Part shown: positions 157-28,810 of the stretch, piece by piece
How positions within the stretch are numbered: position 1 is the stretch's first letter
Layout: each line of letters starts with the position of its first letter
The notes under the pieces: generated by a model
The model's input: the letters and a program-made list of their open reading frames with translations, nothing else
What the model was told of the DNA's origin: nothing
Databases searched by the model: none
Source of the DNA: Spirochaetota bacterium
GTDB lineage: Bacteria > Spirochaetota > Spirochaetia > Sphaerochaetales > Sphaerochaetaceae
DNA: 47,901 bases
NCBI GenBank assembly: GCA_918298275.1
Contig: CAKJZO010000021.1
Span: 1-47,901 of the forward strand
Direction: 5' to 3'
Translations under genes and position numbers: made by a program

Positions 157-1566
157 ATGATGGAAGAACTATGGAAAACCACAATATCACAGATAAAGGA
201 TTCGCTGCCCGAAAGCGATTTCTCATCATGGTTCACCCGTCTGGTCTTCGGTGGAGAAGAGGATGGAAAAGTCACCCTCTACGTGCCTTCCGCATTCTTC
301 AAGGACAAATTCGAAGCCTCCTTCAAGGAGCTCATAGAGAACACGATGAGCGAGCTTGGAGGACAAAATTATTCGATAATACTCGAAGTTAAAAAAGATG
401 CTCAGAAGTTACATTCTGATAAAAAATCAGATGAAAAGTCTAAAACTGAGCCATCGTTTTCTCCTTCATCAAGCAGTCAGCCGACAGCTGCAGATCAAAG
501 GAACAAAGCATCGAAGCCATCCGTCGATGACATGATGTTCAATCCTTCATATACCTTTGAATCCTTTGTTCCCGGAGACAACAGCAACTTTGCATACAGT
601 GCTTGCATGGCCATAGCAAAGAACCCCGGATCTGCCTACAATCCCTGTCTTCTGTACGGAGGAGTAGGACTCGGAAAGACCCACCTTATCCAGAGCATAG
701 GAAACTACATAAAGAAGAATACCAAGCAGAAAGTCGTATATGTTACGGCCGAGAATTTCACGAATGAATACATCCAGTCAGTCGGAGAAAAGAAGACTCA
801 GCAGTTCAAGAACAAGTACAGAAAGGTTTCCATACTTCTCATGGATGATATCCAGTTCCTGCAGAAGAAAGCCGAGACCCAGAATGAGCTTTTCAATACT
901 TTCAATGATCTCTATGACACGGGAAGACAGATAGTATTCACCTGTGATAGACCGGTCGAGGAACTCAAGGATATAACCGACAGACTGAGATCAAGGTTTG
1001 AAAGAGGTCTCAATATAGACCTGCTTCCTCCCAACTACGAGACAAGAGTTGCAATTCTGAGAAAGAAATGTCAGGAAAAAGGTGTGATCTTCAGTGATGA
1101 GGTCCTGGATTACATTGCATCCAACATCTCAAGCAATGTAAGAGCTTTGGAATCATGCCTTACAAAGTTGATTGCCTACTGCCAGTTGCTCAACAAGGAC
1201 ATTTCACTTGAGACTGCAAAAGAGCAGCTCAAGCACATCATCAGTTCAAACAACGATACAAGCGGAATCTCGATTGATCTGATAATAAGGGTAGTGGCGA
1301 ATTACTTCAACGTTTCAGTTTCTGACATAAAGGGTAAGAACAAGAACCAGTCTGTAGTACTTCCCAGACAGATTGCAATGTACCTCTGCAGAAAGCTTAC
1401 TGATTACTCAACGACCGAAATCGGTAACGAGTTCGACGGAAAGAATCATACCACGGTCATGTACAATGTCCAGAAGATGGAAGCCCGCCTGAAATCAAGC
1501 GAGAAGGAAATCAACGGAGTAATCGACAAGCTCGAGACACAGATCAAACTCGAATCAAGGAAGTAA
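157..1566 (+). CDS. dnaA: Chromosomal replication initiator protein DnaA
   Basis: Walker A GGVGLGKTHL, Walker B LLMDDIQFL, C-terminal DnaA-box-binding signature GNEFDGKNHTTVMYN; GGAGG upstream of ATG. Confidence 0.99.
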   Translation: MMEELWKTTISQIKDSLPESDFSSWFTRLVFGGEEDGKVTLYVPSAFFKDKFEASFKELIENTMSELGGQNYSIILEVKKDAQKLHSDKKSDEKSKTEPSFSPSSSSQPTAADQRNKASKPSVDDMMFNPSYTFESFVPGDNSNFAYSACMAIAKNPGSAYNPCLLYGGVGLGKTHLIQSIGNYIKKNTKQKVVYVTAENFTNEYIQSVGEKKTQQFKNKYRKVSILLMDDIQFLQKKAETQNELFNTFNDLYDTGRQIVFTCDRPVEELKDITDRLRSRFERGLNIDLLPPNYETRVAILRKKCQEKGVIFSDEVLDYIASNISSNVRALESCLTKLIAYCQLLNKDISLETAKEQLKHIISSNNDTSGISIDLIIRVVANYFNVSVSDIKGKNKNQSVVLPRQIAMYLCRKLTDYSTTEIGNEFDGKNHTTVMYNVQKMEARLKSSEKEINGVIDKLETQIKLESRK

Positions 1567-1776
1567 TCCTGTTCATAAGCTGTGCATACGTCACTGACAG
1601 GTAATATCATTCAACATCTGTTGACAGGTTATGAACAGCTTGTTTGAAGAAAAACAATCATATATAACGCACTGTGGTAAAGAATTGCTATGTTTTGTAC
1701 ATTTTCTGTGCTATTATTATGATGATTAGGTAGATTCTTAATTAATATATAATCAGCTGGAGAGGAGTCTGAAAAA
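1567..1776. promoter_or_regulatory. dnaA-dnaN intergenic region with near-consensus DnaA boxes
   Basis: TGTTCATAA (1570-1578) and TTATGAACA (1629-1637) form an inverted pair; TGTGCATAC (1581-1589). Each is 8/9 to TTATNCACA or its complement; none is perfect. TATAAT at 1748-1753 ahead of dnaN. Confidence 0.4.
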
Positions 1777-2880
1777 ATGAAATTCGTATGTCAGAAGAAC
1801 GCTATACTCAAGGAACTGTCCAACGCACTTGACTTCACATCCCAGAGAAACACAATGGCAGTCTATGCCAACGTATGCCTTGTCCTGGAAGGCAACAACC
1901 TCACTCTCAAGGCAACAGACCAGAAGATGAGCTATGTCTCTGAAATGGCAGTAGAGGGAATAGACAACGGAAGCACGACTGTTGTATGTGACAAATTCCT
2001 GAACATCATAAAGAATCTTCCTGAATCAAATATCGTATTCGAGGATGATGACGACAAGATCAAGATTTCACCGGAAGGAACATCAATTGAATTCAAGCTC
2101 AGGACTATCGAAGCCTCTGCATTCCCGAGTCTTGATTTTGCCGATGAAGAAGGTTATTTCAAGGTTTCCCAGAAAGACTTCACCGACATGATCAACCAGG
2201 TCATCTTCGCAGTCAGCGACGATGAATCCAAATACGCAATGAACGGTGCACTTCTCGAGAAAGACGGAAGCGGACTTGTAATGGTCGGAACCGACGGAAG
2301 AAGACTTTCATACATCAACAGGAAAATCGAAAGCGAGATTCCCGATTTCCCGAAAGCAACCATTCCCAGCAAGTTCCTCAATCTCATCAGGAAGCTTGCA
2401 GTCGGAGAAGGTGATTTTGAGATCAACGTCAGTGCAAATTCAATTTCCCTGAAGTTCGGAAGCTGCACCATATCATCCTCTCTCATCAAGAATGATTTTC
2501 CTGCATACAAGAGAGTCATTCCCGAGCATCAGAGCCGCTTCTGCATTGTCAATATCTCGCTTCTGAGCGATGCCCTCAAGAGAGTTTCACTCATGGTAGA
2601 GAACAAGTACAAGAAGGTAATTCTTGAATTCGACGAGAACAAGCTGACTGTATATTGCAATGAAAGCGACGTAGGTGCCGGAAAGGAAGTCATCGACTGC
2701 AAGTACGAAGGCGAGCCCCAGCGCTGCGCAATGAACTACACATACCTTCTCAGCCCGCTCAAGGTCATGGACGGAGTAGATGCCAGGATCGAGTTCAGCG
2801 AACCAGGCCGCCCCTTCACGGTCAAGGCTGACTCCGAGAGGGATTATTTGCATGTCATCATGCCGATGAACCTCAACTGA
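1777..2880 (+). CDS. dnaN: DNA polymerase III beta clamp
   Basis: 367 aa, position after dnaA, C-terminal YLHVIMPMNLN typical of DnaN; SD GGAGAGGAG. Confidence 0.97.
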   Translation: MKFVCQKNAILKELSNALDFTSQRNTMAVYANVCLVLEGNNLTLKATDQKMSYVSEMAVEGIDNGSTTVVCDKFLNIIKNLPESNIVFEDDDDKIKISPEGTSIEFKLRTIEASAFPSLDFADEEGYFKVSQKDFTDMINQVIFAVSDDESKYAMNGALLEKDGSGLVMVGTDGRRLSYINRKIESEIPDFPKATIPSKFLNLIRKLAVGEGDFEINVSANSISLKFGSCTISSSLIKNDFPAYKRVIPEHQSRFCIVNISLLSDALKRVSLMVENKYKKVILEFDENKLTVYCNESDVGAGKEVIDCKYEGEPQRCAMNYTYLLSPLKVMDGVDARIEFSEPGRPFTVKADSERDYLHVIMPMNLN

Positions 2881-2892
2881 AATTGACGGAAA

Positions 2893-3987
2893 ATGATTAT
2901 AAAGAAGCTGGTTCTGGATGGTTTCCGCAATATCCGGGACCGCGAGATAGATACCTCGGCAAAACAGATAATCCTCACTGGTGAGAACGGTCAGGGAAAG
3001 ACCAATCTTCTTGAAGCCCTGTACATCCTCTGCTACGGAAACTCCTTCAGAACCCAGAACCTGAAGGAAGCCGTCACACACGGAAGAGAGGGATTCAGGC
3101 TATGCTCAGTATTCGAAGACTCCCAGGGTCTGGAAAGGAAAGCCGAGATATCCTTTCAGGAAGGAAAGAAGATCATAAGGCTGGACAATAAGGAAATCAG
3201 GGACAGAAAGGAACTTATATACTGTCTTCCTTGTATCGTGTTCTCACATGACGACATTGAATTCGTACGGGGCGAACCTGAGAACAGGAGAAGATTCTTC
3301 GACCAGACAATGACCATGTATGATCCTGTTTTCTTCGATGACCTCAGGCGATACAAGCTGATTCTCAAGCAGAGAAATGCTGCGATAAAGGATCAGAGAC
3401 TTTCGCTGTTGGATATCTACGACCAGAAGCTGGCTTCATATGGCATCCAGATAATGAAAGCCAGAAAATCCGTCTGTTCATCCTTTTCCTCAATTTTCCC
3501 GGATATTTACAATGCCGTGTCTCTCGAAGACAGGGGAATAGAAATACAGTACCGTCCTTCCTGGGGGGAAGGCGATTCCGTCGAGGAGATAACGGAAAGA
3601 CTGTTCAACCAGAGGGAAACGGACCTGAAGATGAATACCACCACAAGCGGACCGCACAGGGACCGTTTCCTCATCACCGACAGAAACGGACAGTTCATAA
3701 GCACAGCATCCACCGGACAGATGAGGCTGGCCTCACTGGTATTCAGATCGGCCCAGGCTGCATTCTTCAGACAGAAGACAGGCTTATATCCTATTTTCTT
3801 AATAGATGATGTCCTATTGGAATTGGATGCGCAGAAAAGATCACGTTATCTTTCATATCTAGGACATTATAATCAGGCATTTTTCACTTTTCTTCCGGAG
3901 GAGAAGTATTTCGGCTCTTTCTTTGATTTAAATGGTCCCGATACAAAGAAATACAAAGTTGAAGACGGGAGATTTGAAAATGGCTGA
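2893..3987 (+). CDS. recF: DNA replication/repair protein RecF
   Basis: N-terminal Walker A TGENGQGKTNLLEA, C-terminal FLIDDVLLELD; synteny. Confidence 0.97.
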   Translation: MIIKKLVLDGFRNIRDREIDTSAKQIILTGENGQGKTNLLEALYILCYGNSFRTQNLKEAVTHGREGFRLCSVFEDSQGLERKAEISFQEGKKIIRLDNKEIRDRKELIYCLPCIVFSHDDIEFVRGEPENRRRFFDQTMTMYDPVFFDDLRRYKLILKQRNAAIKDQRLSLLDIYDQKLASYGIQIMKARKSVCSSFSSIFPDIYNAVSLEDRGIEIQYRPSWGEGDSVEEITERLFNQRETDLKMNTTTSGPHRDRFLITDRNGQFISTASTGQMRLASLVFRSAQAAFFRQKTGLYPIFLIDDVLLELDAQKRSRYLSYLGHYNQAFFTFLPEEKYFGSFFDLNGPDTKKYKVEDGRFENG

Positions 3988-4336
3988 AAAAAAGAGTGTT
4001 CCAAGGTATAAGAAAGACAACTACAAGCCTCTTGCCAATGAAGATCCGACCTCGAGCGATGTATTCTTCGATCAGGTTCTTGACCGTTTCCACATCGATC
4101 TCGATGATGTCTCAAGCCAGATAGTCGTGCACTGGAAGACCCTTGTGGAACCTGCGGTGGCAGATCATTCGAAGTGCGAGAAAATCAAGGACGGAGTTCT
4201 CTATCTCACATGTGATCACCCGTCCAGAGCTTCGTACATAAGGCTCAACTCCAGGGAGATAATCAAGTCGATACGTTCTGTTTTTCCTGAAATTGAATTG
4301 AAGAAAATAATTACGAGAGTAAAGAACGCCACTTGA
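3980..4336 (+). CDS. DUF721 / DciA-like protein
   Basis: Start reset to the ATG overlapping the recF stop; VVHWKTLVEPAVADHSKCEKIKDGVLYLTCDHPSRASYIRLN is DUF721-like; synteny after recF. Confidence 0.8.
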   Translation: MAEKKSVPRYKKDNYKPLANEDPTSSDVFFDQVLDRFHIDLDDVSSQIVVHWKTLVEPAVADHSKCEKIKDGVLYLTCDHPSRASYIRLNSREIIKSIRSVFPEIELKKIITRVKNAT

Positions 4337-4440
4337 CGAACATTTTCATTAAATCTATACTCAATTGCTCAGGTATGGGTTTGTCCCTATTACTTGATAT
4401 ATAGAAAATCCCGCGTTAAGCGATAAAATGGAGTAAAACC

Positions 4441-4608
4441 ATGAGTTACAAAGGCAAAAGAACCTATCAGCCCAGTAAGATCAAGAGAAACAGGAAGTTT
4501 GGATTCAGAGCTCGCATGGCAACAAAGGGCGGTCGTCTGGTATTGGCAAGAAGAAGAGCAAAAGGCAGACACAGCCTTACAGTCTCTGATGAGAAGAAGC
4601 CTTACTAA
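4441..4608 (+). CDS. rpmH: 50S ribosomal protein L34 (absent from supplied ORF track, <60 aa)
   Basis: Translation [55 protein letters not shown] is canonical L34. Confidence 0.98.
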
Positions 4609-4975
4609 GAACAGAATAATCAGACTTAAAGCAGATATTGACAATGTCTTCAAAGCAGGAAAAAGGTACTCTCTTTCCTGCTTTAAGTTGTTTGTGGCAA
4701 GCAATGATCTTGCATACAGCAGAATCATAGTCATACCTGCAAGACATTACGGAAATTCAGTTCAGAGAAATCTTATCCGCAGACAGATCAAGGAAATCTG
4801 GAGAACGAATCAGGATAAGTTTGCCGAAGGACTGGATTTCGCCGTAATTGTTTACCCGATGCACGACAGAACCCTTTCGTATGAAGAAAAAAAGGCAATG
4901 ATTCTTGAACTCTTCGGAAAAGGCGGCTGCATCAAGCAACAAGACGGTGCATCGGACGACAGAATCAGGAGCTGA
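4589..4975 (+). CDS. rnpA: Ribonuclease P protein component
   Basis: [28 protein letters not shown]...[17 protein letters not shown]; RnpA family motif; start inferred inside ORF 4499, overlapping rpmH. Confidence 0.93.
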
Positions 4976-4977
4976 TA

Positions 4978-6834
4978 ATGGACAAAAAAACCATTCTGGC
5001 TATTGTCCTCGTCGTGCTGGTCATTACGATCAGCATGATGATACAGACCAATCTGTTCAGCAATCAGGCTGCGGCTGCTCAGACTACAGCTGAGACTCAG
5101 AGCCAGGAAACCGCCGTACAGACTGAACAGAAGGCCGTCGAAGAAGAGAAGAGTACTGCAATTGTCTCTTCCGCTGCCAAGAACACCTCGTCAGAGAAGT
5201 TCATGTTCGAAACGGATCTCTATGAGATTGAATTCGACCCTGTCGGAGCCAGCATCTCCTCTCTTATGCTCAGAGAGCATGCAGATGCCGACGGAGAACG
5301 CGTAGATATCGTCTTCAAGGGTGAAAACGGGCACAATGCCTTCCTCCTCTACTGGGGCGATGACTTCTCCAACCCGGTAATGGACACATTCGCATATACC
5401 GTTGACGGACAGAAGGTGATTTTCACCAATGACTATACCGATTCCAACGGTCATAAGTTCACTGTCGTGAAGACCTATGAGTTCAAGGACGGCGAGTATC
5501 TGTTCGCAGTGACAGTCGACCTTGTCGGAGGTTCGGATTTCAAGGGAATCGGCAACCTGAACGGATATGCCTATACACTTGCCTTCGAGCCTCAGGTAGG
5601 ACCTGCCTTCAAGCAGATGAAGAACAACAACTACGACTACAGGCGTGTCTATATCGACGGATACAACAACAAGGGCAAGCTCAAGAAGAGCATGGTCAAG
5701 TTCTCCAACGGTTCATACTACACGACAGGCCAGCTGCAGTGGCTCAGCGTCACCAGCAAATACTTCACGGTCGTAGGACTTCCCAAGGACAACACACTTG
5801 CATACAAGTATTCCGCACTCCAGACAACAGGCGGAGAGATTGCCCAGACCGACAGTCTGTTCTTCTCGAGGCCCGAGACGTTCGATTCCTCAAGCGATAC
5901 CATCTACTTCTATGCAGGACCTCAGCTGAAGAAGTACCTGAACTCCTACTACAGCGGAATGGACAACGCATGGGGACTCAGAAGCACCAACCTCGATGCC
6001 GCAATGGAAAGCGGATCGATGTTCGGATGGCTTGAGAACATCCTCAAATGGATGCTCACGATGCTCTATAAGGTCATTCCCAACTACGGTGTCGGAATCA
6101 TCCTGCTGACCATCATCATCAAGATCATCCTCTGGCCGCTTTCGAGAAAGAGTGCCGCTTCAACGGCAAAGATGACAGCTCTTCAGCCCAAGATGAAGGA
6201 GCTTCAGACAAAGTACAAGGACAATCCGCAGAAGCTGAACCAGGAGACAGCAGCCCTCTACAAGGAAGAGGGAGTAAGTCCGCTCGGAGGATGTCTCCCG
6301 ATGCTCCTGCAGTTCCCGATCCTGATTGCCATGTACGGACTGCTGAACAAGCACTTCGAGCTTCGCGGCGCACTGTTCATCCCCGGCTGGATTCCGGATC
6401 TTTCGGTACCTGAGACAATCGCAACCCTCGGTTTCAATATCCCGCTTCTCGGAAACGAGATCCACCTGCTGCCGATTCTCTATACAGCCAGCATGATCTT
6501 CTCCATGAAGATTACACAGGGTCAGAACAGTACGGCCGGTCAGGGTAAGGGAATGCAGTTCTTCATGATGTACGGAATGCCGATTCTGTTCTTCTTCATC
6601 CTCTACAGCGCTCCGTCCGGACTGCTTCTCTACTGGATGGCGCAGAACATTCTGTCCATGGGACAGCAGTTCTATACCAACGCCAAGCTGAAGAAGAATC
6701 CGAAGGCCTTTGACAAGAAGGGCGCTTCCGGAGAAAAGGTCCCGGAGGCCGTGAAGAGATATCAGGAAAGGCTGAAGAAGCTTGAGGAAGCAAAGGCTGC
6801 CGCAGCAAAGTCCAATAAGAACAAAAAGAAATAA
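4978..6834 (+). CDS. yidC: Membrane protein insertase YidC
   Basis: Periplasmic domain plus YGVGIILLTIIIKIILWPLSRKSAASTAKM and GGCLPMLLQFPILIAMYGLL; synteny. Confidence 0.98.
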   Translation: MDKKTILAIVLVVLVITISMMIQTNLFSNQAAAAQTTAETQSQETAVQTEQKAVEEEKSTAIVSSAAKNTSSEKFMFETDLYEIEFDPVGASISSLMLREHADADGERVDIVFKGENGHNAFLLYWGDDFSNPVMDTFAYTVDGQKVIFTNDYTDSNGHKFTVVKTYEFKDGEYLFAVTVDLVGGSDFKGIGNLNGYAYTLAFEPQVGPAFKQMKNNNYDYRRVYIDGYNNKGKLKKSMVKFSNGSYYTTGQLQWLSVTSKYFTVVGLPKDNTLAYKYSALQTTGGEIAQTDSLFFSRPETFDSSSDTIYFYAGPQLKKYLNSYYSGMDNAWGLRSTNLDAAMESGSMFGWLENILKWMLTMLYKVIPNYGVGIILLTIIIKIILWPLSRKSAASTAKMTALQPKMKELQTKYKDNPQKLNQETAALYKEEGVSPLGGCLPMLLQFPILIAMYGLLNKHFELRGALFIPGWIPDLSVPETIATLGFNIPLLGNEIHLLPILYTASMIFSMKITQGQNSTAGQGKGMQFFMMYGMPILFFFILYSAPSGLLLYWMAQNILSMGQQFYTNAKLKKNPKAFDKKGASGEKVPEAVKRYQERLKKLEEAKAAAAKSNKNKKK

Positions 6835-7598: not shown

Positions 7599-8603
7599 TC
7601 AGATAGAAGAAATTCGTCTTTTCAGGTCGGGAATCTTCTCTTCGGAGAATTGAGCCCCGACCTGTTTTATTATCTGGCCTGCAAGTTCGGAAGCAACGTT
7701 TCCGCTGCGGACAACGTCCATGCCGTTGCAGAGGCCGTAAAGGAAGCCGGCTGCATATGTGTCGCCTGCACCTGTGGTGTCTACCGGAGTTTCCGGTCCC
7801 TGTACCGGTATTTCATATACAGTTCTTCTGTAGCTGATGAAAGAGCCCTTCTTGCCGTTCTTCACTATGGCGGTCTCGCAGAGCTTGCCCATAGTCTTGC
7901 AGCACTCGTAGGGATCGTAGTTGTCGAACAGCATGCGGGCCTCTTCCTTGTTTGCGAAGACGATGTCACAGTGGTTTTCTATCAGCTCCAGGAAGGCATC
8001 GTGGTATCGGCCTACGGCAAAGGGATCGGCAATGTCGAACGAGACCTTCACGTCGTTGCGTGCGGCGATTTCAAGGGCCTTGCGGATGGCTTCCATCTGG
8101 TTCTTTGTGTCCCACATGTAGCCCGTGAAGTGGAAGAAATCGGATCTTGCGACCTCCTCTTCGATGACATCCTCCGGGCAGAAGTCCCGGTTTGCCCCAA
8201 GATAGGTGTTCATGGTACGTTCCGAGTCCGGGGTTATGAGTATGATCGAAGAGCCCGTCACGTTGGCATCTGAGACTGCAAGGTTGTCATGCACGCCCAG
8301 GGCCCTGAGCCTTTCGCGGTAGATCGTGCCGTACTCGTCGGTTCCGATCTTACCTGCAAGGGTCGACTCTATTCCTAGGGCGGAGAGGGTTATCACGGTG
8401 TTCGGACAGCTTCCGCCGCAGGAGAAGGCCGGATGCTTGGTCTTGATGAATTCGGTCAGCTCCAGCCTTTTCTCGAGCGAGATCAGGTTCATGGTGCCCT
8501 TGTAGAGCCCCATGGTCTTGAGTTCCTCGTCCGATACGTTGACTATGACATCTATGAGCGGATTTCCTATTCCGTAGACGATTCCCTTGCTGTTCTTCAT
8601 CAT
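7599..8603 (-). CDS. PfkB-family carbohydrate/adenosine kinase
   Basis: GNPLIDVIVNV...CGGSCPNTV and DTTGAGDTYAAGFLYG PfkB signatures. Confidence 0.92.
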   Translation of the reverse strand: MMKNSKGIVYGIGNPLIDVIVNVSDEELKTMGLYKGTMNLISLEKRLELTEFIKTKHPAFSCGGSCPNTVITLSALGIESTLAGKIGTDEYGTIYRERLRALGVHDNLAVSDANVTGSSIILITPDSERTMNTYLGANRDFCPEDVIEEEVARSDFFHFTGYMWDTKNQMEAIRKALEIAARNDVKVSFDIADPFAVGRYHDAFLELIENHCDIVFANKEEARMLFDNYDPYECCKTMGKLCETAIVKNGKKGSFISYRRTVYEIPVQGPETPVDTTGAGDTYAAGFLYGLCNGMDVVRSGNVASELAGQIIKQVGAQFSEEKIPDLKRRISSI

Positions 8604-8616
8604 CTTCCCCCTGAAC

Positions 8617-10374
8617 TCAAAGGGGCTCCGTAGCCTGGATCAGATAATCCCTGGAACTATCCTCGACCATCGGCAGAAGCATGTCGCGCACCCAGCGGTG
8701 ATATTCGTTGACCATGTCCACTTCCTGATCGGTGAGCATCTCCTTGACTATCAGCTCCCGCTCGTACGGGCAGCAGGTCAGGACCTCGAAGGTATAGAAT
8801 TTGCCGAATTCCGTCTCCATTGCCTCCGTTACGGCAACAAGGTTCTCTATCCTGATGCCGTGTCGGCCTTCCTTGTAGAGACCCGGCTCGTCGCTGAGGA
8901 CCATTCCAGGCTCAAGCGCAACCGGTTCGCCGGTGCCCTGTTTTGAAGAGACTCTCTGCGGTCCTTCGTGCACTGAGAGACGGTGTCCGACTCCGTGGCC
9001 TGTGCCGTGGAAATAATCCATGCCCCTCTGCCAGAGGAACTGGTGGGCAAGGGCATCAAGCTGATGGCCGGTGGTTCCCTTCGGGAAAATCTGCGAGGAA
9101 AGGGCAAGATGGCCCTTGAGGACAAGGGTGTAGTCTTCCTTCTGTTCCTGAGTTGCCTCTCCGAAGAGCAGGGTTCTGGTTATATCGGTCGTTCCGCAGG
9201 TGTACTGTCCGCCCGAATCAAGGACAAGAAGTCCGTTTCCGCAGATCGGGATGTCCGTTTCCTCGGTTGCGCTGTAGTGGACGACCGCTCCGTGGGCTCC
9301 GAATCCTGCTATGGTGCCGAATGAAGGTCCGAGGTATTCCTCTTCCATCTCACGCTCGTCGGAGAGCGCCTTGGCTATGGAAAGCTCCGTGAAGTCGAAC
9401 TCATCGCGCTTTACAAGGGCAAGGAAATTGACAAGCGCAACGCCGTCCAGGATGTGGGCGACCCTCATGCCGTCAAGCTCGGTCTCGTTCTTGACTGCCT
9501 TCATATCGGTGGAGTACTCGCGGCCTTTCGAGATCCTTACTCCCTCGGCCCTGTCCAGAGCATTCTTCATCTTCATGTTTATTCGCTCAGGATTGAGGCG
9601 CACCGTTACGTTCTTCAACGCAGACAGTTCATCCGCAACGGCATCGTAGGGGAGAACTTCATAGCCTTCAGGCCTTGTATTACCAAAGCGTGCAATCGGA
9701 GTAAAGAGCTTCACGCTGTCCGGACCTATCAGCAGATGGGCAAGGAACACGGGGGTATCGCAGATGTCGCTTCCCCTGAGGTTCAATATCCATGCAATAT
9801 CGTCCAGACTGGAAATGAGCTGGTAGTCTTCCTTGTTCTGATGGCCTTTATTGCGAAGATTGGCTATTTTTTGCTGCACACTCATGCCTGTCAGGCTATC
9901 ATCAAGGCTGACAACCGGATTCTCCGGCATTGCAGGACGATCAGTCCAGATTACATCCAGGAGATCATCCGTCGCAACGACATCAAGGCCCTTGCCTTTG
10001 TATCTTTCCATCGCGGCAATCATCAGAGTCTCTGCGGAGATTCCGATCTTCTGCCCGCCGGAGAAGTTCTCCGTCAGGAAATCGATGGGCCTGGTGGCTT
10101 CGGGACCGTCGATCTTTCTCATCTCGAACACGGTTCCCCTGATCTGGTCCGCACACTGGACGAAATATCTGGAATCGACCCAGATGAGTGCCTTGTCCAT
10201 TGTCACGATCACGGTTCCCGCGCTGCCTGAGAAGCCGCTGATCCAGTGTCTGGAAGACCATCTCGGGCATACATATTCGCTCTGATGGGGATCCGTTCCG
10301 TTGATGATCCAGGCAGAGAGACCCGCCTTTGCCATTTCACGCCTTAAGGCATCAACCTTTTCGTTTATTTGCAT
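8617..10374 (-). CDS. pepP: Xaa-Pro aminopeptidase (M24 family, extended ~585 aa form)
   Basis: LVLDSGGQYTCGTTDITRT, FHGTGHGVGHRLSVHEGPQ, metal ligands typical of M24B. Confidence 0.93.
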   Translation of the reverse strand: MQINEKVDALRREMAKAGLSAWIINGTDPHQSEYVCPRWSSRHWISGFSGSAGTVIVTMDKALIWVDSRYFVQCADQIRGTVFEMRKIDGPEATRPIDFLTENFSGGQKIGISAETLMIAAMERYKGKGLDVVATDDLLDVIWTDRPAMPENPVVSLDDSLTGMSVQQKIANLRNKGHQNKEDYQLISSLDDIAWILNLRGSDICDTPVFLAHLLIGPDSVKLFTPIARFGNTRPEGYEVLPYDAVADELSALKNVTVRLNPERINMKMKNALDRAEGVRISKGREYSTDMKAVKNETELDGMRVAHILDGVALVNFLALVKRDEFDFTELSIAKALSDEREMEEEYLGPSFGTIAGFGAHGAVVHYSATEETDIPICGNGLLVLDSGGQYTCGTTDITRTLLFGEATQEQKEDYTLVLKGHLALSSQIFPKGTTGHQLDALAHQFLWQRGMDYFHGTGHGVGHRLSVHEGPQRVSSKQGTGEPVALEPGMVLSDEPGLYKEGRHGIRIENLVAVTEAMETEFGKFYTFEVLTCCPYERELIVKEMLTDQEVDMVNEYHRWVRDMLLPMVEDSSRDYLIQATEPL

Positions 10375-11365
10375 TCTTGTTCCCTTTTCCCTTTGATTTC
10401 GGGTATGTGACAGGTTTTCCCTTGAATGAGTAGATTATCATTGCCGCTCCGGCAACTATCATCAGAAAGCACAGTATCTGCCCCATGGAAATGTTCAGGG
10501 CGGACTTGAAGAGGGCGGTAGGTTCCGTTTCCTTTCCCAGGGCGATGACAAAGCCGATCTGGCTGTCCGGCTCGCGGAAATACTCGATGATAAAGCGTGC
10601 GAGGCCGTATCCGATGAAATAGCTTCCGGTAAGAAGCCCCGGACCTTTCTTTCCATGCAGGCGCTTGGCGATCGGTCTGATGATAAACCAAAGGACAAGC
10701 CAGAGCACGATGCCCTCGAACAGGGCTTCGTAAAGCTGCGACGGATGCCTGGGAAGGTTGACCATGGCTCCGGGAGTGTAGCTCATGCCGATTTTATCCG
10801 CCACCTCACGGACCCACTCGATCGAAGTCGAGAAAGAAGGTGCATCCGGGAATACCATGCCGACGGAACTTGCGGTGACCCTGCCCCAGAGTTCTCCGTT
10901 GATGAAGTTTCCGAGGCGCCCGAAGGTATATCCCAGTGGGATTGCCGCGGTAAGATGGTCCGCCATGTCGAAGAACCGGTAGCCGTGCTTTCTGCAGAAA
11001 AGCCAGACACCGAATACGCAGCCGATTACTCCTCCGTGATAGCTCATTCCCGGAAGGCCTACGAAGCGTCCGTTCTGGAAAGGCCAGAAAATCATCCACG
11101 GATGGGTCCAGTAATACCACGTTCCGTCATATAGAAGGGTTGAGAAAACCCTCGCTCCGAGGATAAGGAATCCGACACCGTAGCAGAAGAGGGTGATGGT
11201 ATCATCCGCATTCATGCCGTTGAGTTCTCCGTGTCTGCATTCGTGGCGGATCAGCACATATGTGATGGAGAATGCCACGAGGTACATCAGCGCATACCAT
11301 CTGACGGGCAGAAACGGAACCACGAACGGGGAAATCCAGCTTGGGAAATCGACGTAAATCTGCAT
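10352..11365 (-). CDS. lgt: Prolipoprotein diacylglyceryl transferase
   Basis: RWYALMYLVAF, GRLGNFINGELWGR, RHPSQLYEA are Lgt signatures; start set at MQIYVDF. Confidence 0.96.
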   Translation of the reverse strand: MQIYVDFPSWISPFVVPFLPVRWYALMYLVAFSITYVLIRHECRHGELNGMNADDTITLFCYGVGFLILGARVFSTLLYDGTWYYWTHPWMIFWPFQNGRFVGLPGMSYHGGVIGCVFGVWLFCRKHGYRFFDMADHLTAAIPLGYTFGRLGNFINGELWGRVTASSVGMVFPDAPSFSTSIEWVREVADKIGMSYTPGAMVNLPRHPSQLYEALFEGIVLWLVLWFIIRPIAKRLHGKKGPGLLTGSYFIGYGLARFIIEYFREPDSQIGFVIALGKETEPTALFKSALNISMGQILCFLMIVAGAAMIIYSFKGKPVTYPKSKGKGNKNANKRKG

Positions 11366-11467
11366 ACTGTGATGATAGCACAGATGCATATTCCATATAA
11401 ATGTGTTTTTTGCGTGTTGTTCCCATAATTGAAAGACGCACAGCCCAAAAAGGTGTATATTTCAATC

Positions 11468-12991
11468 ATGAAAAAAACAGCAATGGTTTTGATTGTTCTG
11501 GCACTTCTGGCCGGAACTCTATTTGCAAACGGGTCTCCCGAAGAGCAGATGTTCTTCAACAACCTCATGAACAACTCTCAGGGCGCCACCTATTCCTCGG
11601 GGACAACCACGAGCAGAACCTCCACAAAGGGATCCGAGATTATTTCCCGCGATATGGCCACTCTCGAGAGGCTTTACCAGTATGTCGACAGGAACTTCCT
11701 GTATGAAATCGACTATGATGCCGTCTATGAGGCCATGGCCACCGCTCTTTTCGATGCCTTGAAAGACAAGTACACGTACTATGTCAAGGCAGAGGAATCC
11801 GGAGACTATGAGGAAGAGGTTTCAGGAGTCTACGGCGGACTTGGAATCTATTTTTCAAAGACGTACGTCGATTATCAGGACGTCGAAGATGAAAGCACCC
11901 TCTATGCGATAATCACTCAGGTATTCCCGAACACACCCAGCGCCAAGGCAGGGCTGAAGGCCGGGGACTACATCCTCGAGATAGGCGGAGAGTCCGTAGT
12001 TGAGATGGAAGCCACAGAGTGTGCAAAGCGCATGAAGGGCGAGCCGGGAACCTCCGTTGATCTGACAATCAGGAGGGGGGACAGCACATTCACAATCCCC
12101 ATCACCAGGGCTATAATCGTCGTCCCGACGGTTGAATATGAAATGATAGAGGGTACGCACACTGCATATCTGAGGATTCTGGAATTCTCGACAAGCACCT
12201 ATAGGGCGATTGCCGAAGCCCTTACGGATCTCTCCAATTCAGGAATGGAGAAACTGATCATCGACCTCAGGGACAACCCCGGAGGTGATGTCGATGTTAC
12301 CCTGGCTATTGCGGACATGTTCATCAGCGATTCCAAGCTTCTTTCCATTTCCTATAAGGACCCGTCAAAGAACATTACCTATGCTGCAACGGATTCCGTG
12401 ACAGTCTCTCCGTCTACGGAAGTTGCAATCCTGGTCAACGGAGGAACTGCAAGTTCCGCCGAGATCTTCTCAAGCGCAATGAAGGACAACGGAAGGGCTG
12501 TTCTGTTCGGTTCAACCACCTACGGCAAGGGCGTGATGCAGGTGATTTCCTCCTTCGGCGACGGCTATACCTCAATCACAACGGCAAGCTTCGTCGGGCC
12601 TGCAGGAAAGACAATCCACGGAGAGGGTGTGGAACCGGATGTTGTCATCGATGAGATTGTCGTAGAGGAAGAGGAAATAGAGGCATACACGGAGCTTCTG
12701 AACAGCAAGGCAGCAGAGAAATTCGTTGACCAGAATCCGGATTTCACGGACGAGAACGTACGGAAATTCGCACAGGAGCATGCAGATTCGGGACTTAGGG
12801 AAATCGTTCTTCTTCTGGTTGCCCGCAACGAGTATCTCTCGAGAATGGACTATGACGACAGACCTCTTGCGGATATCGTCTACGACAACTGCTGCAAGGC
12901 AGCTTTCGAGTATCTTCAGAGCTATGAGATCGACTACGACGCAAACTACAAGCCGACTTCCGACACGTCGGTGAGAGTAGTGAATTTCTAG
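11468..12991 (+). CDS. Secreted S41 C-terminal processing peptidase
   Basis: Signal peptide MKKTAMVLIVLALLAGTLFA, PDZ domain GLKAGDYILEIGGESV, catalytic NGGTASSAEIF and TYGKGVMQ. Confidence 0.94.
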   Translation: MKKTAMVLIVLALLAGTLFANGSPEEQMFFNNLMNNSQGATYSSGTTTSRTSTKGSEIISRDMATLERLYQYVDRNFLYEIDYDAVYEAMATALFDALKDKYTYYVKAEESGDYEEEVSGVYGGLGIYFSKTYVDYQDVEDESTLYAIITQVFPNTPSAKAGLKAGDYILEIGGESVVEMEATECAKRMKGEPGTSVDLTIRRGDSTFTIPITRAIIVVPTVEYEMIEGTHTAYLRILEFSTSTYRAIAEALTDLSNSGMEKLIIDLRDNPGGDVDVTLAIADMFISDSKLLSISYKDPSKNITYAATDSVTVSPSTEVAILVNGGTASSAEIFSSAMKDNGRAVLFGSTTYGKGVMQVISSFGDGYTSITTASFVGPAGKTIHGEGVEPDVVIDEIVVEEEEIEAYTELLNSKAAEKFVDQNPDFTDENVRKFAQEHADSGLREIVLLLVARNEYLSRMDYDDRPLADIVYDNCCKAAFEYLQSYEIDYDANYKPTSDTSVRVVNF

Positions 12992-13339
12992 TTTATCTAC
13001 CCGTTTTTCTAGTGTGGAACCTGCCTTCGGGCAGGTTCTTCCGTTATAAGAAAATAAGGGGTCGGGAAAGGGTGTGTGGGTATTTTTTACACACACTATT
13101 GCACAAGTTATGCACAACCCTTGTGCAAGGTAGTATTTATATTGACAGAAACGGCTTGGATGTAAGCTTCCTAGTTTGGTACTAATCATTTGAATAGTAG
13201 AATGTAATTTCTTTATATAAAATAACTTAGATAAATTTGTATTTTTTTGTACCTGTTAAAAAGTTATATAAGAATTATTGCTGTTGTGCAGTTTCGGAGA
13301 TATTAAAAAAAACTAAAATTACAGGAAGTTATGCACAAG
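12992..13339. other. AT-rich gap between convergent genes with clustered DnaA boxes (candidate oriC/DnaA-binding locus)
   Basis: Perfect TTATGCACA at 13108-13116 and 13329-13337; TGCACAA/TTGTGCA heptamers at 13100-13106, 13111-13117, 13121-13127, 13284-13290, 13332-13338; ~150 bp of AT-rich DNA between. Confidence 0.6.
13017..13038. terminator. Stem-loop with UUCG loop after S41 peptidase
   Basis: GAACCTGCC-TTCG-GGCAGGTTC perfect 9-bp stem. Confidence 0.75.
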
Positions 13340-14122
13340 TTATTGACAGCATGATTCAAGGATTGTCTGAACGGCTCCGATTGCGTAAATCGATGCAGTT
13401 TCGCATCTTAGAATGTTTGTCTTGAGCGTTACGGCCTTGAATCCGCAATTGAGAAGAAGAGCGCATTCCTCCTCTTCCAAACCACCTTCCGGACCCACTA
13501 TGATGGCGGTGATTCCGTCGAAGCCCCTGAGGCAGGAAAACAGGTCGCTTTGGTTCTCGGAAAGCCTGACCTGGTGCAGGACTATCCCGAGGTGTGCAAG
13601 ACCTTCAGAGCGCTTTGAAAAGTCTGCCGGAATATCCTTGAACGGTAGAACTCCGTGTACTTTTGTGGGTACCACGGATCCGCTCTGCTGGATAGCTTCC
13701 GTAACGATGGCATCATAGCGCTCAAGGCGGGCGGTTTCCTTTCCTTCAAGGTCTGCCACACAGTTTCTGCTTTTCACCAGAACGATATCCTGAACGCCAG
13801 CCTCGGTGGCTTTTTTTATTATTTCATCTGCCTTACGGCCCTTGGGAAGGCACTGATAAAGGACTATGGGCTTAAGGGGGCGCATCTGCGGAAGCGCATC
13901 TGTTTTCTCTTCCAGCTTCTCCGAGGGAGAGACCGAGAGGAGGCAGCTTGCCTTTTCGATTTTCTCGATTCTGAGATTCCACAGTCCGCCTTCACGGTCT
14001 CGACCCATCAGCTCCTGACCCTCCTTGAGCCTGAGGGCCTTGATCAGGTAGTTGAAATCCTTTCCTGTCAGCCGAAGGGTCGAACTTCTGTCAAAAGTGG
14101 CGGGAAGTAGAAAAAGTCTCAT
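13340..14122 (-). CDS. rsmE: 16S rRNA m3U1498 methyltransferase RsmE
   Basis: MRLFLLPATFD...LTGKDFNYLIKALRLKEGQEL, IVGPEGGLEEEE, LKTNILRCETASIYAIG. Confidence 0.95.
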   Translation of the reverse strand: MRLFLLPATFDRSSTLRLTGKDFNYLIKALRLKEGQELMGRDREGGLWNLRIEKIEKASCLLSVSPSEKLEEKTDALPQMRPLKPIVLYQCLPKGRKADEIIKKATEAGVQDIVLVKSRNCVADLEGKETARLERYDAIVTEAIQQSGSVVPTKVHGVLPFKDIPADFSKRSEGLAHLGIVLHQVRLSENQSDLFSCLRGFDGITAIIVGPEGGLEEEECALLLNCGFKAVTLKTNILRCETASIYAIGAVQTILESCCQ

Positions 14123-14163
14123 GACAAGAGTATGAACCATATCGTATTGTTAAGTAAAGAGAG

Positions 14164-23555: not shown

Positions 23556-24299
23556 ATGAAGAGAAAAACATACCCCAAAACCGTCCTGCTGCTTGTCGTT
23601 TCGGCAATCCTTCTTGCCGTTTCATGTTCGCTTGTACGTCCGGAAAGGACTCTGGAAGTGCAGATACCCAAACATCCCTGGGAAACAGTGCAGACAAAGA
23701 ATCTCTGGTACACCCTCAGATGGACGAGCGGCACTGAAATCCGCAGTGCCTACATCGGTCCTGACGAGAGGTTTGTCAGTCTCCACATACCAATCGGAGA
23801 GACCGTTCTGATTGCTGCCTATCCGCTTGGCGAGATGGCCCCTTTCGGAGCGATAATCACTCCCTTGGACGACGGAATCCAGGTATCCCTGAACCAGAAT
23901 GACGGGGTGGTTGTCAACGAACTTATTGACCTTGACCGCGTTGTTACACAAAGGCTGAACTATGGCCCGATTCGCGAGAGTATGATGAAAAAAACCGCTG
24001 ACTTACGCAGAATAGAGAAGGTTTCCCTTTTGCGTGATCTGCAGAACGGAGAGCTCTCGCAGACATCTTTCAAGGCCGTTTCGCTCTTCGGTGTGGACCC
24101 GTTCGTTCTGCCGAACGGACTATGGACAAGCGAGTACCTGTGCGACCCGAGCCTCTATATTTCGGACAACCTCAGCCCCCAGCTGCAGCTGCCTGAAGGA
24201 GTGTTCCGCTATCTCAATGCAGACATGAACCGAGTCCTGGTTCTCATAGTCGATTCCTCCGGAAACAGCTACAGCTATCTCAAGCAGAGCCTGATCTAA
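23556..24299 (+). CDS. Putative lipoprotein, unknown function
   Basis: N-terminal hydrophobic segment with lipobox-like LLAVSC; no recognised domain. Confidence 0.8.
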   Translation: MKRKTYPKTVLLLVVSAILLAVSCSLVRPERTLEVQIPKHPWETVQTKNLWYTLRWTSGTEIRSAYIGPDERFVSLHIPIGETVLIAAYPLGEMAPFGAIITPLDDGIQVSLNQNDGVVVNELIDLDRVVTQRLNYGPIRESMMKKTADLRRIEKVSLLRDLQNGELSQTSFKAVSLFGVDPFVLPNGLWTSEYLCDPSLYISDNLSPQLQLPEGVFRYLNADMNRVLVLIVDSSGNSYSYLKQSLI

Positions 24300-24323
24300 A
24301 TGTACACTAAAGGAGGTTAGCCC

Positions 24324-24417
24324 ATGACATTCGAGTGGGATGAGCGAAAGAATCATTCCAGCACGATGTGCCACCGAGAAGGAAGCAAATGAGTACAAAG
24401 AAAAGAATAACTCTTGA
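24324..24417 (+). pseudogene. brnT: BrnT toxin remnant, internally deleted and frame-broken
   Basis: AGGAGG SD then MTFEWDERKN (BrnT N-terminus), followed in another frame by ARCATEKEANEYKEKNNS* (BrnT C-terminal ARxAT-KE); the middle of the protein is missing. Confidence 0.8.
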
Positions 24418-24711
24418 AGAATTGCAATCGAAAGAAATGCCGGAGGAGGCGAAGATAAGGATCCGAAGTGCGGTTTCTGTTTATGACGAAGATAATCCGC
24501 CGATGACGAAAGAAGAGCTGGAAACCCTTCGTCCTGTAGCACCAGACATCCGGAATGGTTCAAACCCAGAAAGGCAGATGTCCACCTCAAGATCGATATC
24601 GATGTCCTGGAAGCCTTCAAAGCCCAGGGAAAGGGCTATCGGACTCGTATAAACGAGGTTCTGCGCAACTATATTTTCAATCAAAACCAACTCCAAAAAC
24701 AGGAAATGTGA
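24389..24711 (+). pseudogene. brnA: BrnA antitoxin, frameshifted
   Basis: Frame 1: MSTKKRITLEELQSKEMPEEAKIRIRSAVSVYDEDNPPMTKEELETLRPVAPDI. Frame 2: HPEWFKPRKADVHLKIDIDVLEAFKAQGKGYRTRINEVLRNYIFNQNQLQKQEM* (BrnA C-terminal DNA-binding domain). Confidence 0.85.
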
Positions 24712-24775
24712 CAAGTGTGTAAATGATTTTTTAAAACATTTCGTAAAAAATTAAAAAAGATTTTTAAAAAAATTG

Positions 24776-24804
24776 TTGACAAAATGGTTGCATTTATATA
24801 TATT
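24776..24804 (+). promoter_or_regulatory. Sigma70-type promoter of module copy 1
   Basis: TTGACA (24776-24781)-N17-TATATT (24799-24804), preceded by A/T tracts 24727-24771. Confidence 0.8.
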
Positions 24805-24859
24805 GAAAATACGGACGCGTATGTGTCCTCGATTCTTTATCTGCAAGGGGCTTTTGAAC

Positions 24860-25405
24860 ATGAAAAAAGCAATGATGACAATTCTGCTTTTCTCTGTGTT
24901 TTCGGTATGCCTTTTTGCAGATTCCTTCCGTTTCAGCATTGTCTGGGACAAGGTGGTTGAATCGGAAACAACCCTTTCTGTTGTGAATCTTGATAACGAC
25001 AGTGAAGTCGAGAATCACAGCAAGGATTTGGAGATTGTCAGTACTGTGCAGGATGTAGCCAGAATCAAGTATGCCTCAAACGAAGGTGGAATACATGTTC
25101 TCTCATATAAGGCAACACCGCTGATGAACAACAGCGACCAGTCCGGTCATTCCTTCAACCTTTTCTTCAGTTATACAGAAAACGATTCAACAGATGTTCA
25201 GGAAATCCAGGTAGGAACAAATAAGTCTCTTACCTATCCCAATGGATCTGTTAAGGCTGAAACATCAATAAATATGGGGCAGGGTGGTGTTCTGACCCCC
25301 AGATATGTTCTCATTCAGGTTGAGCTTCCCGATGTCTCCGTTGACACCATGCAGACTAATGTCAAATACACTTCGACAATCACAATAGAGAGGACGTCGC
25401 CATGA
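24860..25405 (+). CDS. Secreted protein, module family A copy 1
   Basis: Signal peptide MKKAMMTILLFSVFSVCLFA|D; C-terminus VKYTSTITIERTSP; AAGGGG SD; ATGA overlap with next gene. Confidence 0.9.
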   Translation: MKKAMMTILLFSVFSVCLFADSFRFSIVWDKVVESETTLSVVNLDNDSEVENHSKDLEIVSTVQDVARIKYASNEGGIHVLSYKATPLMNNSDQSGHSFNLFFSYTENDSTDVQEIQVGTNKSLTYPNGSVKAETSINMGQGGVLTPRYVLIQVELPDVSVDTMQTNVKYTSTITIERTSP

Positions 25406-26106
25406 AGAAATGCATTGTCCTCGCTACTATGCTGATAGTCTCAATGGTATTTGCCTTTGCCGATACCCACCTTGGAAGAACCGAAAACACTGTCACAGAC
25501 AGTTCCTTCGTTGTTCAGGGGTATTACAAAGGAGAGAAGGAAAATACTTCTGTTACTCTGGCATTCAAGGATATTGATAATCAGACAATCGTTCATTCTG
25601 GTCAGTCAACAACCGGAACTAAAGTCAACGTGTCTGACCGACACCTTGGATCGAATACAGGTACGATTTTCACTTGGTCGATGACTGGCACTACAACCTC
25701 AACAACCACGTTGAAATTTACCTTTTCTACTCTTCAGGCGGAAATGAACGATGTTTTCTATCGTCCTACATATACTTTGAAAATGACAATTAACGAAACT
25801 CGTAATAGAAATAGTGGCGGTAGTACATTGACAGACACCTTCTATTCCAATGTCACAAATAAAACACAGGTAGTTGGCGGCGGCACAACAACCGGAACAA
25901 AGGCTACTCAGAGTTCTGAATTTACCGGTGCTTCAACAATTACATATACAGGTAAGACCAGTAGTAGCGGTTATGGTTATGGTTACAGTTCCACAACATG
26001 GTACAGATCGGGAACCTGTACTTTGAATATTGCAGATTACGAACAGACAATCCCCGGCAGTTATCATTATGTCTGCTGGGTTATCGCGGAGTACTCGGTA
26101 CAATGA
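25402..26106 (+). CDS. Secreted protein, module family B copy 1
   Basis: Signal peptide MKKCIVLATMLIVSMVFAFA|D; similar to B copy 2 (FxWxx[ST]G...TLxF[TS]F, WxRSGT). Confidence 0.9.
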   Translation: MKKCIVLATMLIVSMVFAFADTHLGRTENTVTDSSFVVQGYYKGEKENTSVTLAFKDIDNQTIVHSGQSTTGTKVNVSDRHLGSNTGTIFTWSMTGTTTSTTTLKFTFSTLQAEMNDVFYRPTYTLKMTINETRNRNSGGSTLTDTFYSNVTNKTQVVGGGTTTGTKATQSSEFTGASTITYTGKTSSSGYGYGYSSTTWYRSGTCTLNIADYEQTIPGSYHYVCWVIAEYSVQ

Positions 26107-26723
26107 AGAAAATAATCGTTTCACTATTTCTAATTGTCTCTTTGTTCTCTGTCTTTGGGGCTACAATCGACCCGTTTAAGGTTCAGACCATATCTGGATT
26201 TATTGATGACATATCTTATCTTTATGTAAGTCCTTTTACCTTTGACTATATCGGTACCGTAGGCTATGCAGGTATTAATTTGGATTATGAAGATACAACA
26301 GCTAGCTATCGCAATCTTGTTAAGCCCTCAAGTACTCCATTGTCGATGCTTGGTGTCCAGATTGGATCTTTTTCTGTTTTGGTTACATATACACAGTCTA
26401 CAACAATCTCAGGTGCAAAACTGACTATTACCCACGAGAAGCTGATTCATACCACTGATTCAAGCGCTCAACTTGAATATGAGTTGGGAGTTCTTTATGC
26501 AATAAGCAATGGGACAACTACCGGAACAGAAACTTCTGCAATTTGTCTCAGTACGGAAGCTACGGGTAACAATCCTAAAAAGATTGAAATCACCCTTTCT
26601 CAACAGTCAAAGATTGCAGCTATTCAGAATGCATATCTATATTTCCGTCTCGCAAATGGCCAGAAAGCTTCGGTGACTGGGCAGTATGAATCAGTTGTTA
26701 CTTTTACGATGGAGGCAATATGA
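26103..26723 (+). CDS. Secreted protein, module family C copy 1
   Basis: Start at MKKIIVSLFLIVSLFSVFG inside ORF 25998; motifs shared with C copy 2 (IGSFSVLV, THEKLIHTTDSS, GQYESVVTFTM). Confidence 0.9.
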   Translation: MKKIIVSLFLIVSLFSVFGATIDPFKVQTISGFIDDISYLYVSPFTFDYIGTVGYAGINLDYEDTTASYRNLVKPSSTPLSMLGVQIGSFSVLVTYTQSTTISGAKLTITHEKLIHTTDSSAQLEYELGVLYAISNGTTTGTETSAICLSTEATGNNPKKIEITLSQQSKIAAIQNAYLYFRLANGQKASVTGQYESVVTFTMEAI

Positions 26724-28066
26724 AGAAACTAATTCTCATACTCTCCATTCTATTCTTGTTCTCCGTATCTGTTTTTGCTGTTGAATCTTTCTGGTGCCTT
26801 AATGCAACTGCTAACGTATCAAGCAGTGGAGATCACTATCGATTCAATTACAGTACAGTATTTGACTTGTCGACCTATTTCTCCGGAACACCCAAATTCA
26901 GCGATTATGCAGGCCAAAGCAATCCCAACGGAAAGCTGAATGAATCAAGAGCAATCGGAACTGTTGGTGTTGGCGGTTGTGATCATGCCATTGAATATAC
27001 AATAAGCACGAATGGCGGAAAGTTTGTTTCTCAGTCAGACCCCTCCAAGTATCGAGAATTCTATGTTGTTAATGTTCCTGACTACTCTGAGTCCAACAGT
27101 TCGGGCAGAAGCTATCTTTGTTATAATTACAACGGTACTGGTGCAACAGCACATAGTACGCTAGGTAGCAATTCAATGACATTCACTGCGCCTGTAACAA
27201 ATGGAAATACGAGTACAACGATTTACAATAGCAATGGCAGAACTACAAACGTAAAATGTGCCTCTGTCGGACTTGACCTGTTCCTTTGTATGGCCCAATT
27301 GTCAAATTCAGATTTGGAGCACTTGGCAGAAAATGATGACTATATAGCAACCATTACCGTTTCTTGGCATTGTACCAATGCGGGTTGCAATCAAAATCAT
27401 TCAGGTACGTTTGATATGGTTGTAAGAGGATACTATGGAAGCAACTCCGGACAGGCTAGAGATTCATTCCTTCTCATCGTCAATCCTGCTGCAGATGTCA
27501 ATACTCTCGATCTTAAGAAGATGATGAAGGAAGACCAGACAAAGACAATCGCCAGCATGACAATTGCAACCACTACAAAAGAAGGAACCAGTGGCAATGC
27601 ATATGCCTGGCGTGATCATATCTATGCATTCCTTTCTGCCAGTGCGGACTATAATACAGCCGATCATTCCGGTTTTGTCCTCACAAAAATGACAAACCGT
27701 TCGATTACGATTCCGTATACTCTGACTGTTTATAACACAACTTCCGGATCCTCAATGCAAGGACAGGTTTATGATGGGACAGACTACTTCATCGAGCATG
27801 ATCAGTCTTATTGCATTGATCTTAAGGACTATTCTAAACCAAGTACGAATTACTATGCTATGTCGTATGATAGATATGGCACATACTACTATGCAATAAA
27901 CTATAGTGGAAGGGTTGAAATAAACCTGACAAATTTTACAATACCAGGTACCACGGTTGATCTTCGGACAGTTATGAATGATCCTGTTACATATTACGAC
28001 GAGTACACCAGATATATTGGTAAATACGAATCCAACATTTATTACCATATAGTTTTTGTGGATTAA
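26720..28066 (+). CDS. Secreted two-domain protein, module family D copy 1
   Basis: Signal peptide MKKLILILSILFLFSVSVFA; internal DDYIATITVSW and terminal GKYESNIYYHIVF strand motifs; Cys-containing HCTNAGCNQNH. Confidence 0.9.
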   Translation: MKKLILILSILFLFSVSVFAVESFWCLNATANVSSSGDHYRFNYSTVFDLSTYFSGTPKFSDYAGQSNPNGKLNESRAIGTVGVGGCDHAIEYTISTNGGKFVSQSDPSKYREFYVVNVPDYSESNSSGRSYLCYNYNGTGATAHSTLGSNSMTFTAPVTNGNTSTTIYNSNGRTTNVKCASVGLDLFLCMAQLSNSDLEHLAENDDYIATITVSWHCTNAGCNQNHSGTFDMVVRGYYGSNSGQARDSFLLIVNPAADVNTLDLKKMMKEDQTKTIASMTIATTTKEGTSGNAYAWRDHIYAFLSASADYNTADHSGFVLTKMTNRSITIPYTLTVYNTTSGSSMQGQVYDGTDYFIEHDQSYCIDLKDYSKPSTNYYAMSYDRYGTYYYAINYSGRVEINLTNFTIPGTTVDLRTVMNDPVTYYDEYTRYIGKYESNIYYHIVFVD

Positions 28067-28150
28067 TGACTTGTATGTGTTGCAAAATTAGCAGTTTTGT
28101 AAAAAATTTTAAAAAAACCTGACAAAATTTGAAAAAAATTATAAAAAAAC

Positions 28151-28180
28151 TTGACTTCTCCCTATGCCTATACCTATTAT
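28151..28180 (+). promoter_or_regulatory. Promoter of module copy 2
   Basis: TTGACT (28151-28156)-N18-TATTAT (28175-28180); upstream A-tracts 28095-28149; spacer carries CCTATG-CCTATA-CCTATT. Confidence 0.7.
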
Positions 28181-28261
28181 ACGTATACCAAGGGTGCGTG
28201 TATTGGGTTAAAACTGCCAAGGATTGTTTTTCCTTGTTTGGTCGATAGAAAAGGGGAAGAA

Positions 28262-28810
28262 ATGAAGAAGATACTTGGTTTTGTTTTAATAAGCCTTTTA
28301 TTCCTTCCCGGATTATTATGTGCTGCGCCTTCTCTGCCTGCACAAAGAAACTTCAACCTTGTTCATACTCTTACATCAAATGCTACCTATCATTTTGTTT
28401 TCCAGAATATGGCAGATACTCCCGTTGAAATCACCAGTGCAGATGTCAGCAATGGTGGGAAATTTGCAAGGGTTGTTATTAATTTCAACGATGATGTACT
28501 TTATAGTTTCAATCTGAAATTCAGTCCCCTTGAGCATGTTTCTCTTGCAAATACATTCTGTGAATATACAATGGAAGTTCTCAGACCCAATTCAAATGAG
28601 ACACTCGTGCCAGTGGTTCCGAATCAGAGCGAGGGACATAGTGCCTGCAGTGCAACATTGAACGGAAGGGTGGATTACCAATTATCTGGAACTTGGCAGA
28701 ATGAATACCTTGCAGAGCTCAAGATCACACTGGATACAGATTCTGCACTTGCCGGAATCTATGCCGGTACAATTATTATCGAACAGATTACAGACGGAGG
28801 CGGCCAATGA
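28262..28810 (+). CDS. Secreted protein, module family A copy 2
   Basis: Signal peptide MKKILGFVLISLLFLPGLLCA; C-terminus AGIYAGTIIIEQ; AAGGGG-like SD; ATGA overlap. Confidence 0.9.
   Translation: MKKILGFVLISLLFLPGLLCAAPSLPAQRNFNLVHTLTSNATYHFVFQNMADTPVEITSADVSNGGKFARVVINFNDDVLYSFNLKFSPLEHVSLANTFCEYTMEVLRPNSNETLVPVVPNQSEGHSACSATLNGRVDYQLSGTWQNEYLAELKITLDTDSALAGIYAGTIIIEQITDGGGQ

Follow-up and report, generated by a model that had tools for sequence, protein, structure and literature searches.

How replication initiation is controlled has been worked out in detail in few bacteria, and what is known of DnaA control elements away from oriC comes mostly from E. coli, B. subtilis and Streptomyces. 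In the latter two, DnaA-box clusters near oriC restrain initiation (PMC4585315). The hallmark of datA and of such clusters is a limit on initiation, imposed through IHF-dependent ATP hydrolysis or through titration. DARS1 and DARS2 of E. coli are intergenic sites with at least three DnaA boxes that control the state of DnaA. The bipartite origins of H. pylori and B. subtilis have two DnaA-box regions, one of them with a DnaA-trio/DUE beside dnaA (PMC8235120), and a DnaA box beside an in-frame DnaA-trio run constitutes the BUS, which defines the unwinding module (PMC10721633, PMC6669920). For Brachyspira pilosicoli, a putative oriC upstream of dnaA has been described, together with noted differences in origins between spirochetes (PMC2897892); in the literature searched, no description was found of the Sphaerochaeta oriC or of the element presented here.

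The element, at 13097-13348 of the analyzed window, consists of two tandem DnaA-box pairs, one on either side of ~220 bp of AT-rich DNA. Like datA and the clusters of B. subtilis and Streptomyces, it is non-coding, has a conserved chromosomal place and is apparently distinct from oriC (PMC4585315). It differs from them in having two tandem pairs ~220 bp apart, a very AT-rich core and a fixed TTATATA; datA requires an IHF site, and the likeness of the element to datA is one of positional features. Two DnaA-box regions, one with a trio beside dnaA, are also a feature shared with bipartite origins. However, the element lacks the bipartite layout of two clusters flanking dnaA at short distance, as the two sites are 9-30 kb apart in the family and farther apart in other orders, and the second region, the element, is itself DUE-like. 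It is intergenic like DARS1 and DARS2, but core boxes I and II of DARS face each other, whereas the conserved boxes of the element are co-oriented. A co-oriented DnaA-box pair is reminiscent of BUS boxes 6 and 7 (PMC10721633), but the pair in the element has no adjacent DnaA-trio, the trio being located in the dnaA-dnaN gap.

Location and parts of the element

The window is the entire 47,901-bp contig C21 from the 1.83 Mb genome of a rumen spirochaete, whose closest named relative by RsmE is the roe-deer rumen MAG 'Spirochaetales bacterium' RGIG4911 (98% identity). The family used in our comparisons is probably Sphaerochaetaceae. Profile matches place dnaA, dnaN, recF and yidC at 157-6834. The convergent S41 (+) and rsmE (-) genes leave a 348-bp gap (12992-13339) between their 3' ends. 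An earlier, sequence-only reading of the window had pointed out that other convergent pairs abut, and two further nearby pairs (7598/7599 and 15837/15838) indeed have zero gap. The GC content of the stretch 24000-31000 is 0.39-0.43 compared with ~0.52 in the surroundings, and this stretch is possibly acquired DNA. The features referred to below are as follows.

157..1566, + strand: dnaA (TIGR00362, 512 bits)
1567..1776, + strand: dnaA-dnaN intergenic region, the probable main origin; its boxes are weak (box, trio and stability scans)
1693..1701, + strand: degenerate DnaA box, TTTTGTACA, beside the trio; a perfect or near-perfect box is found here in several other genera
1711..1728, + strand: DnaA-trio run, CTA TTA TTA TGA TGA TTA; a CTA/TTA run at the same place in 28/28 genomes
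11429..12991, + strand: S41 C-terminal processing peptidase gene (TIGR00225)
13017..13038, + strand: GC-rich hairpin, probable S41 terminator (fold -18.3 kcal/mol, z -4.2)
13097..13105, + strand: left tandem DnaA box A, TATTGCACA, 7/9; identical in 11/11 genus members, position kept in the family
13108..13116, + strand: left tandem DnaA box B, TTATGCACA, exact (pattern search; genus and family alignments)
13117..13328, no strand: AT-rich core, with the window's least stable 60- and 100-bp stretches inside
13120..13128, - strand: extra inverted box-like copy, TTGCACAAG, not kept in the genus
13264..13272, + strand: TTATATAAG motif (TTATATA), 65 bp 5' of the right box (family alignment)
13329..13337, + strand: right tandem DnaA box A, TTATGCACA, exact (pattern search; genus and family alignments)
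13340..13348, + strand: right tandem DnaA box B, TTATTGACA; overlaps the stop codon of rsmE
13340..14140, - strand: rsmE, 16S rRNA methyltransferase gene (TIGR00046)

The spacing inside each tandem pair is 2 bp, and in an alignment of 32 family genomes the conserved boxes are all co-oriented. In the window, the element lies ~11.5 kb from the dnaA-dnaN gap, both sites being on the dnaN side. The outer tandem partners (13097-13105 and 13340-13348), the TTATATA motif, the S41 hairpin and the DnaA-trio in dnaA-dnaN were absent from the sequence-only reading. The two exact TTATGCACA boxes that it reported (13108-13116 and 13329-13337) were recovered as the only TTATNCACA sites in the window; the genome contains 31 such sites, and the gap is the sole place with two inside 1 kb. 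We likewise found the five copies of TGCACAA/TTGTGCA (13100, 13111, 13121(-), 13284(-) and 13332) described as far above chance, and the density is indeed so: 0.03-0.05 copies of TGCACAA are expected in 348 bp, and none of the Markov simulations attained five TGCACAA or two TTATNCACA. The corresponding Poisson P values at the genome's own rates, ~2e-10 for five TGCACAA and ~2e-5 for two TTATNCACA in 348 bp, are optimistic because the 7-mer was picked post hoc, a point made moot by conservation. The AT-rich stretch noted at 13131-13283 has an AT content of 76%. No Rfam matches or tRNA genes were found, and a promoter scan gave promoter-like sites no more often than in shuffles. The S41 hairpin carries a UUCG loop, and its stem is kept in 10 of the 11 genus members.

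Conservation in the genus, family and class

Across the 11 genus members, the left tandem pair does not vary, the right pair is nearly identical and the intervening sequence is partly free, with box pairs and spacing retained despite an RsmE identity of only 64-98%. The 7-mers fared unevenly in the conservation check that the sequence-only reading had proposed: three of the five are kept in all or nearly all members, but those at 13121 and 13284 are not. The TAGTAG tract that it had pointed to is present at 13195-13200, but its conservation ends at the genus; as a candidate DnaA-trio of the element it was rejected, being confined to the genus and without a long run. In wider relatives the same check was positive, and the element could be aligned in 32 family genomes, in every case near rsmE/pfkB and 10-30 kb from dnaA. 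The left-pair pattern is found close to rsmE in many other genera. TTATATA is located 64-66 bp before the right box in most of the 32 genomes and is absent or displaced in a few; a distance of 75-76 bp results when the second box of the right pair is the one scored. A few family elements failed the extraction rule for this alignment though single boxes stood at the right distance. A strict geometry pattern matched 40 of 139 family genomes, almost always once in each, and 87 of 392 class genomes, with 0 matches for the reversed-pattern controls in either set; some of the class matches are the ordinary oriC box cluster beside dnaA.

The gene order found in most genera is dnaA-dnaN-recF-g4499-yidC-jag-pfkB-element-rsmE-S41-lgt, where g4499 is a conserved ORF. 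In the genus of the window, S41-lgt-pepP stands between pfkB and the element, which keeps its rsmE neighbour and its orientation. This block (window 7599-13339) is rearranged and is located past rsmE in most other genera. The box pattern was found again in other orders of the class, where homology of the distant elements is assumed from architecture only. The element lies just beyond jag or at most 15 kb from dnaA in three other class families, and 97-860 kb away from dnaA in further class members. Its flanking genes vary by lineage, including EPSP synthase and a GGDEF protein, a winged-helix regulator, polyprenyl synthase and a STAS protein, and the glycine-cleavage T protein, and the element is therefore not the promoter of one gene. 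In three class families (loci L220, L221, L222 and L219), the gene adjoining the element encodes an OmpR/PhoB-type winged-helix protein, and a functional link between this neighbour and the DnaA-box element is possible. Conservation strongly supports a functional element here that is predicted to bind DnaA.

The dnaA-dnaN gap and DNA stability

The main origin is most likely the dnaA-dnaN gap. As the sequence-only reading had stated, its boxes are 8/9 at best (TTATGAACA at 1570-1578 and 1629-1637), and in the genus of the window the best DnaA boxes are found at the element, not in dnaA-dnaN. A CTA/TTA run just 5' of dnaN was present in 28/28 genomes (the window and 27 relatives), with a length of 2-7 versus a mean of 1.3 under the null. 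In the same comparison no DnaA-trio was found at the element, where the longest CTA/TTA run was 1-2, equal to the null. The trio-side DnaA box is decayed in 11/11 genus members (TTTTGTACA and similar; window 1693-1728, L124-L129), with the trio retained. One genome (G022) has, besides its main dnaA, a second, divergent dnaA-like match with 43% identity (C34:372-1409), which may represent a paralogue or contaminating DNA.

Across the 47.9 kb, stability is lowest within the element core for both 60- and 100-bp windows (centres 13218 and 13229), and the trio region of dnaA-dnaN ranks third and fourth. In 11 of the 14 genomes compared, stability is lower at the element than in dnaA-dnaN, and the element ranks high in the other family genomes. 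A low-stability region flanked by DnaA boxes, which is an oriC feature, is thus present at the element, and the low stability of the core leaves room for an auxiliary-origin role.

Strand asymmetry between dnaA and the element

Raw cumulative GC skew had its minima within or between the two sites, typically ~5 kb past dnaA-dnaN, and elsewhere in one family genome (G093); in the family the switch of asymmetry falls nearer dnaA or between the sites. Because raw GC skew is confounded by gene strand, fourfold-degenerate sites were used, in an analysis that accounts for gene strand and codon family on a scale from 0 (left of the origin) to 1 (right of the origin). The dnaA-element interval gave a mean of 0.75 in eight family genomes, with flanking nulls of 0.04 and 1.01, and 0.55 in the genus of the window; on the window's own contig it leans left (w 0.34). 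In most family genomes w is well above the left null, a changepoint was located near dnaA in G094 and G101, and replication of the interval solely from the element was rejected in most genomes tested. The interval looks replicated mainly from the dnaA side, yet intermediate, and the deviation from 1 is only suggestive because the genomes are related and the interval genes are shared.

At the class level, the strand switch was located from the positions and strands of the 8-mer GGTTGTTG among the matches listed, in complete-looking parts only. In four class genomes where the element is at least 97 kb from dnaA, the polarity of the 8-mer among these matches flips at dnaA, not at the element, with ln likelihood ratios of 2.9, 1.8, 4.4 and 4.4 in favour of a switch at dnaA over one at the distant element.

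Possible roles of the element

The reading we favour, and to which we give an even chance, is that the element is a conserved DnaA-binding control site, distinct from the main origin in dnaA-dnaN; given the fixed layout kept in relatives, it probably controls or assists replication and is not itself the main origin. DnaA would probably occupy both tandem box pairs across the easily melted 220-bp core. A separation of 2-3 bp between DnaA boxes favours their head-to-tail occupation by DnaA (PMC8682772), and the 2-bp spacing may lead to such assembly here. The element, 11.5 kb from the weak-box origin, could then set the supply of active DnaA there, by titrating DnaA, by altering its nucleotide state or by feeding it to the origin. 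The sequence, its geometry and conservation, the low stability, the unlinked flanking genes, the location of the trio module outside the element and, where the two sites can be told apart, the strand switch at dnaA are observed, whereas we infer DnaA binding as well as the direction and route of regulation; titration, which had been proposed from the sequence, is viable, as is regulation. Observations that count against a control site are the origin-like instability of the core, which is superfluous for titration, the intermediate asymmetry of the interval, which is unpredicted for a purely regulatory site, and the location of this genus's best boxes at the element instead of dnaA-dnaN.

The same observations lend themselves to an auxiliary or split origin, the main rival and a possible but distinctly less probable reading, in which the element serves as an additional DnaA-dependent unwinding site firing in some cells, or its high-affinity boxes loop to dnaA-dnaN to give a bipartite origin over 11.5 kb. 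Tandem boxes around the least stable DNA of the window form an origin-like layout, the interval asymmetry is intermediate, and strong boxes were lost from dnaA-dnaN in this genus and retained at the element. However, the element has no conserved DnaA-trio, known bipartite origins flank one gene (PMC8235120), and the 97-860 kb that separate the element from dnaA in other orders are more than a fixed split origin could span; the signal of the interval may also stem from a gene set common to related, non-independent genomes. It seems unlikely that the element is a class-wide second DnaA-dependent unwinding site of fixed architecture, whose partial firing or remote action would give the intermediate asymmetry. 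The proposal of the sequence-only reading that the element is the true oriC, here taken as the sole one with dnaA-dnaN merely autoregulatory, could draw on the perfect boxes, the AT-rich core, the deep conservation and the leftward lean of the interval on the window's contig. Against it stand the conserved trio module in dnaA-dnaN, the rejection of element-only replication in most genomes tested, the interval w of most family genomes, which far exceeds the left null, the changepoints near dnaA in G094 and G101 and the switch at dnaA in four class relatives, and we regard it as improbable.

A DARS-like site that reactivates DnaA as in E. coli would also appear as a non-coding DnaA-box cluster in a conserved place, independent of its flanking genes, but the DARS core requires opposed boxes I and II (PMC8682772) where those of the element are co-oriented, which makes this very improbable. 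We give least credence to a DnaA-regulated promoter or small-RNA locus, for which TTATATA could conceivably serve as a -10-like sequence. The site is located between two 3' ends, its promoter-like sites are at shuffle level, an Rfam match is absent and the neighbouring genes change between lineages.

That the probable origin of this genus is not where its best boxes lie is a caution against calling oriC from box density alone. As a single-copy element of fixed geometry across a spirochaete family, and probably more widely, the predicted control site offers a defined target for studying initiation control in the phylum.
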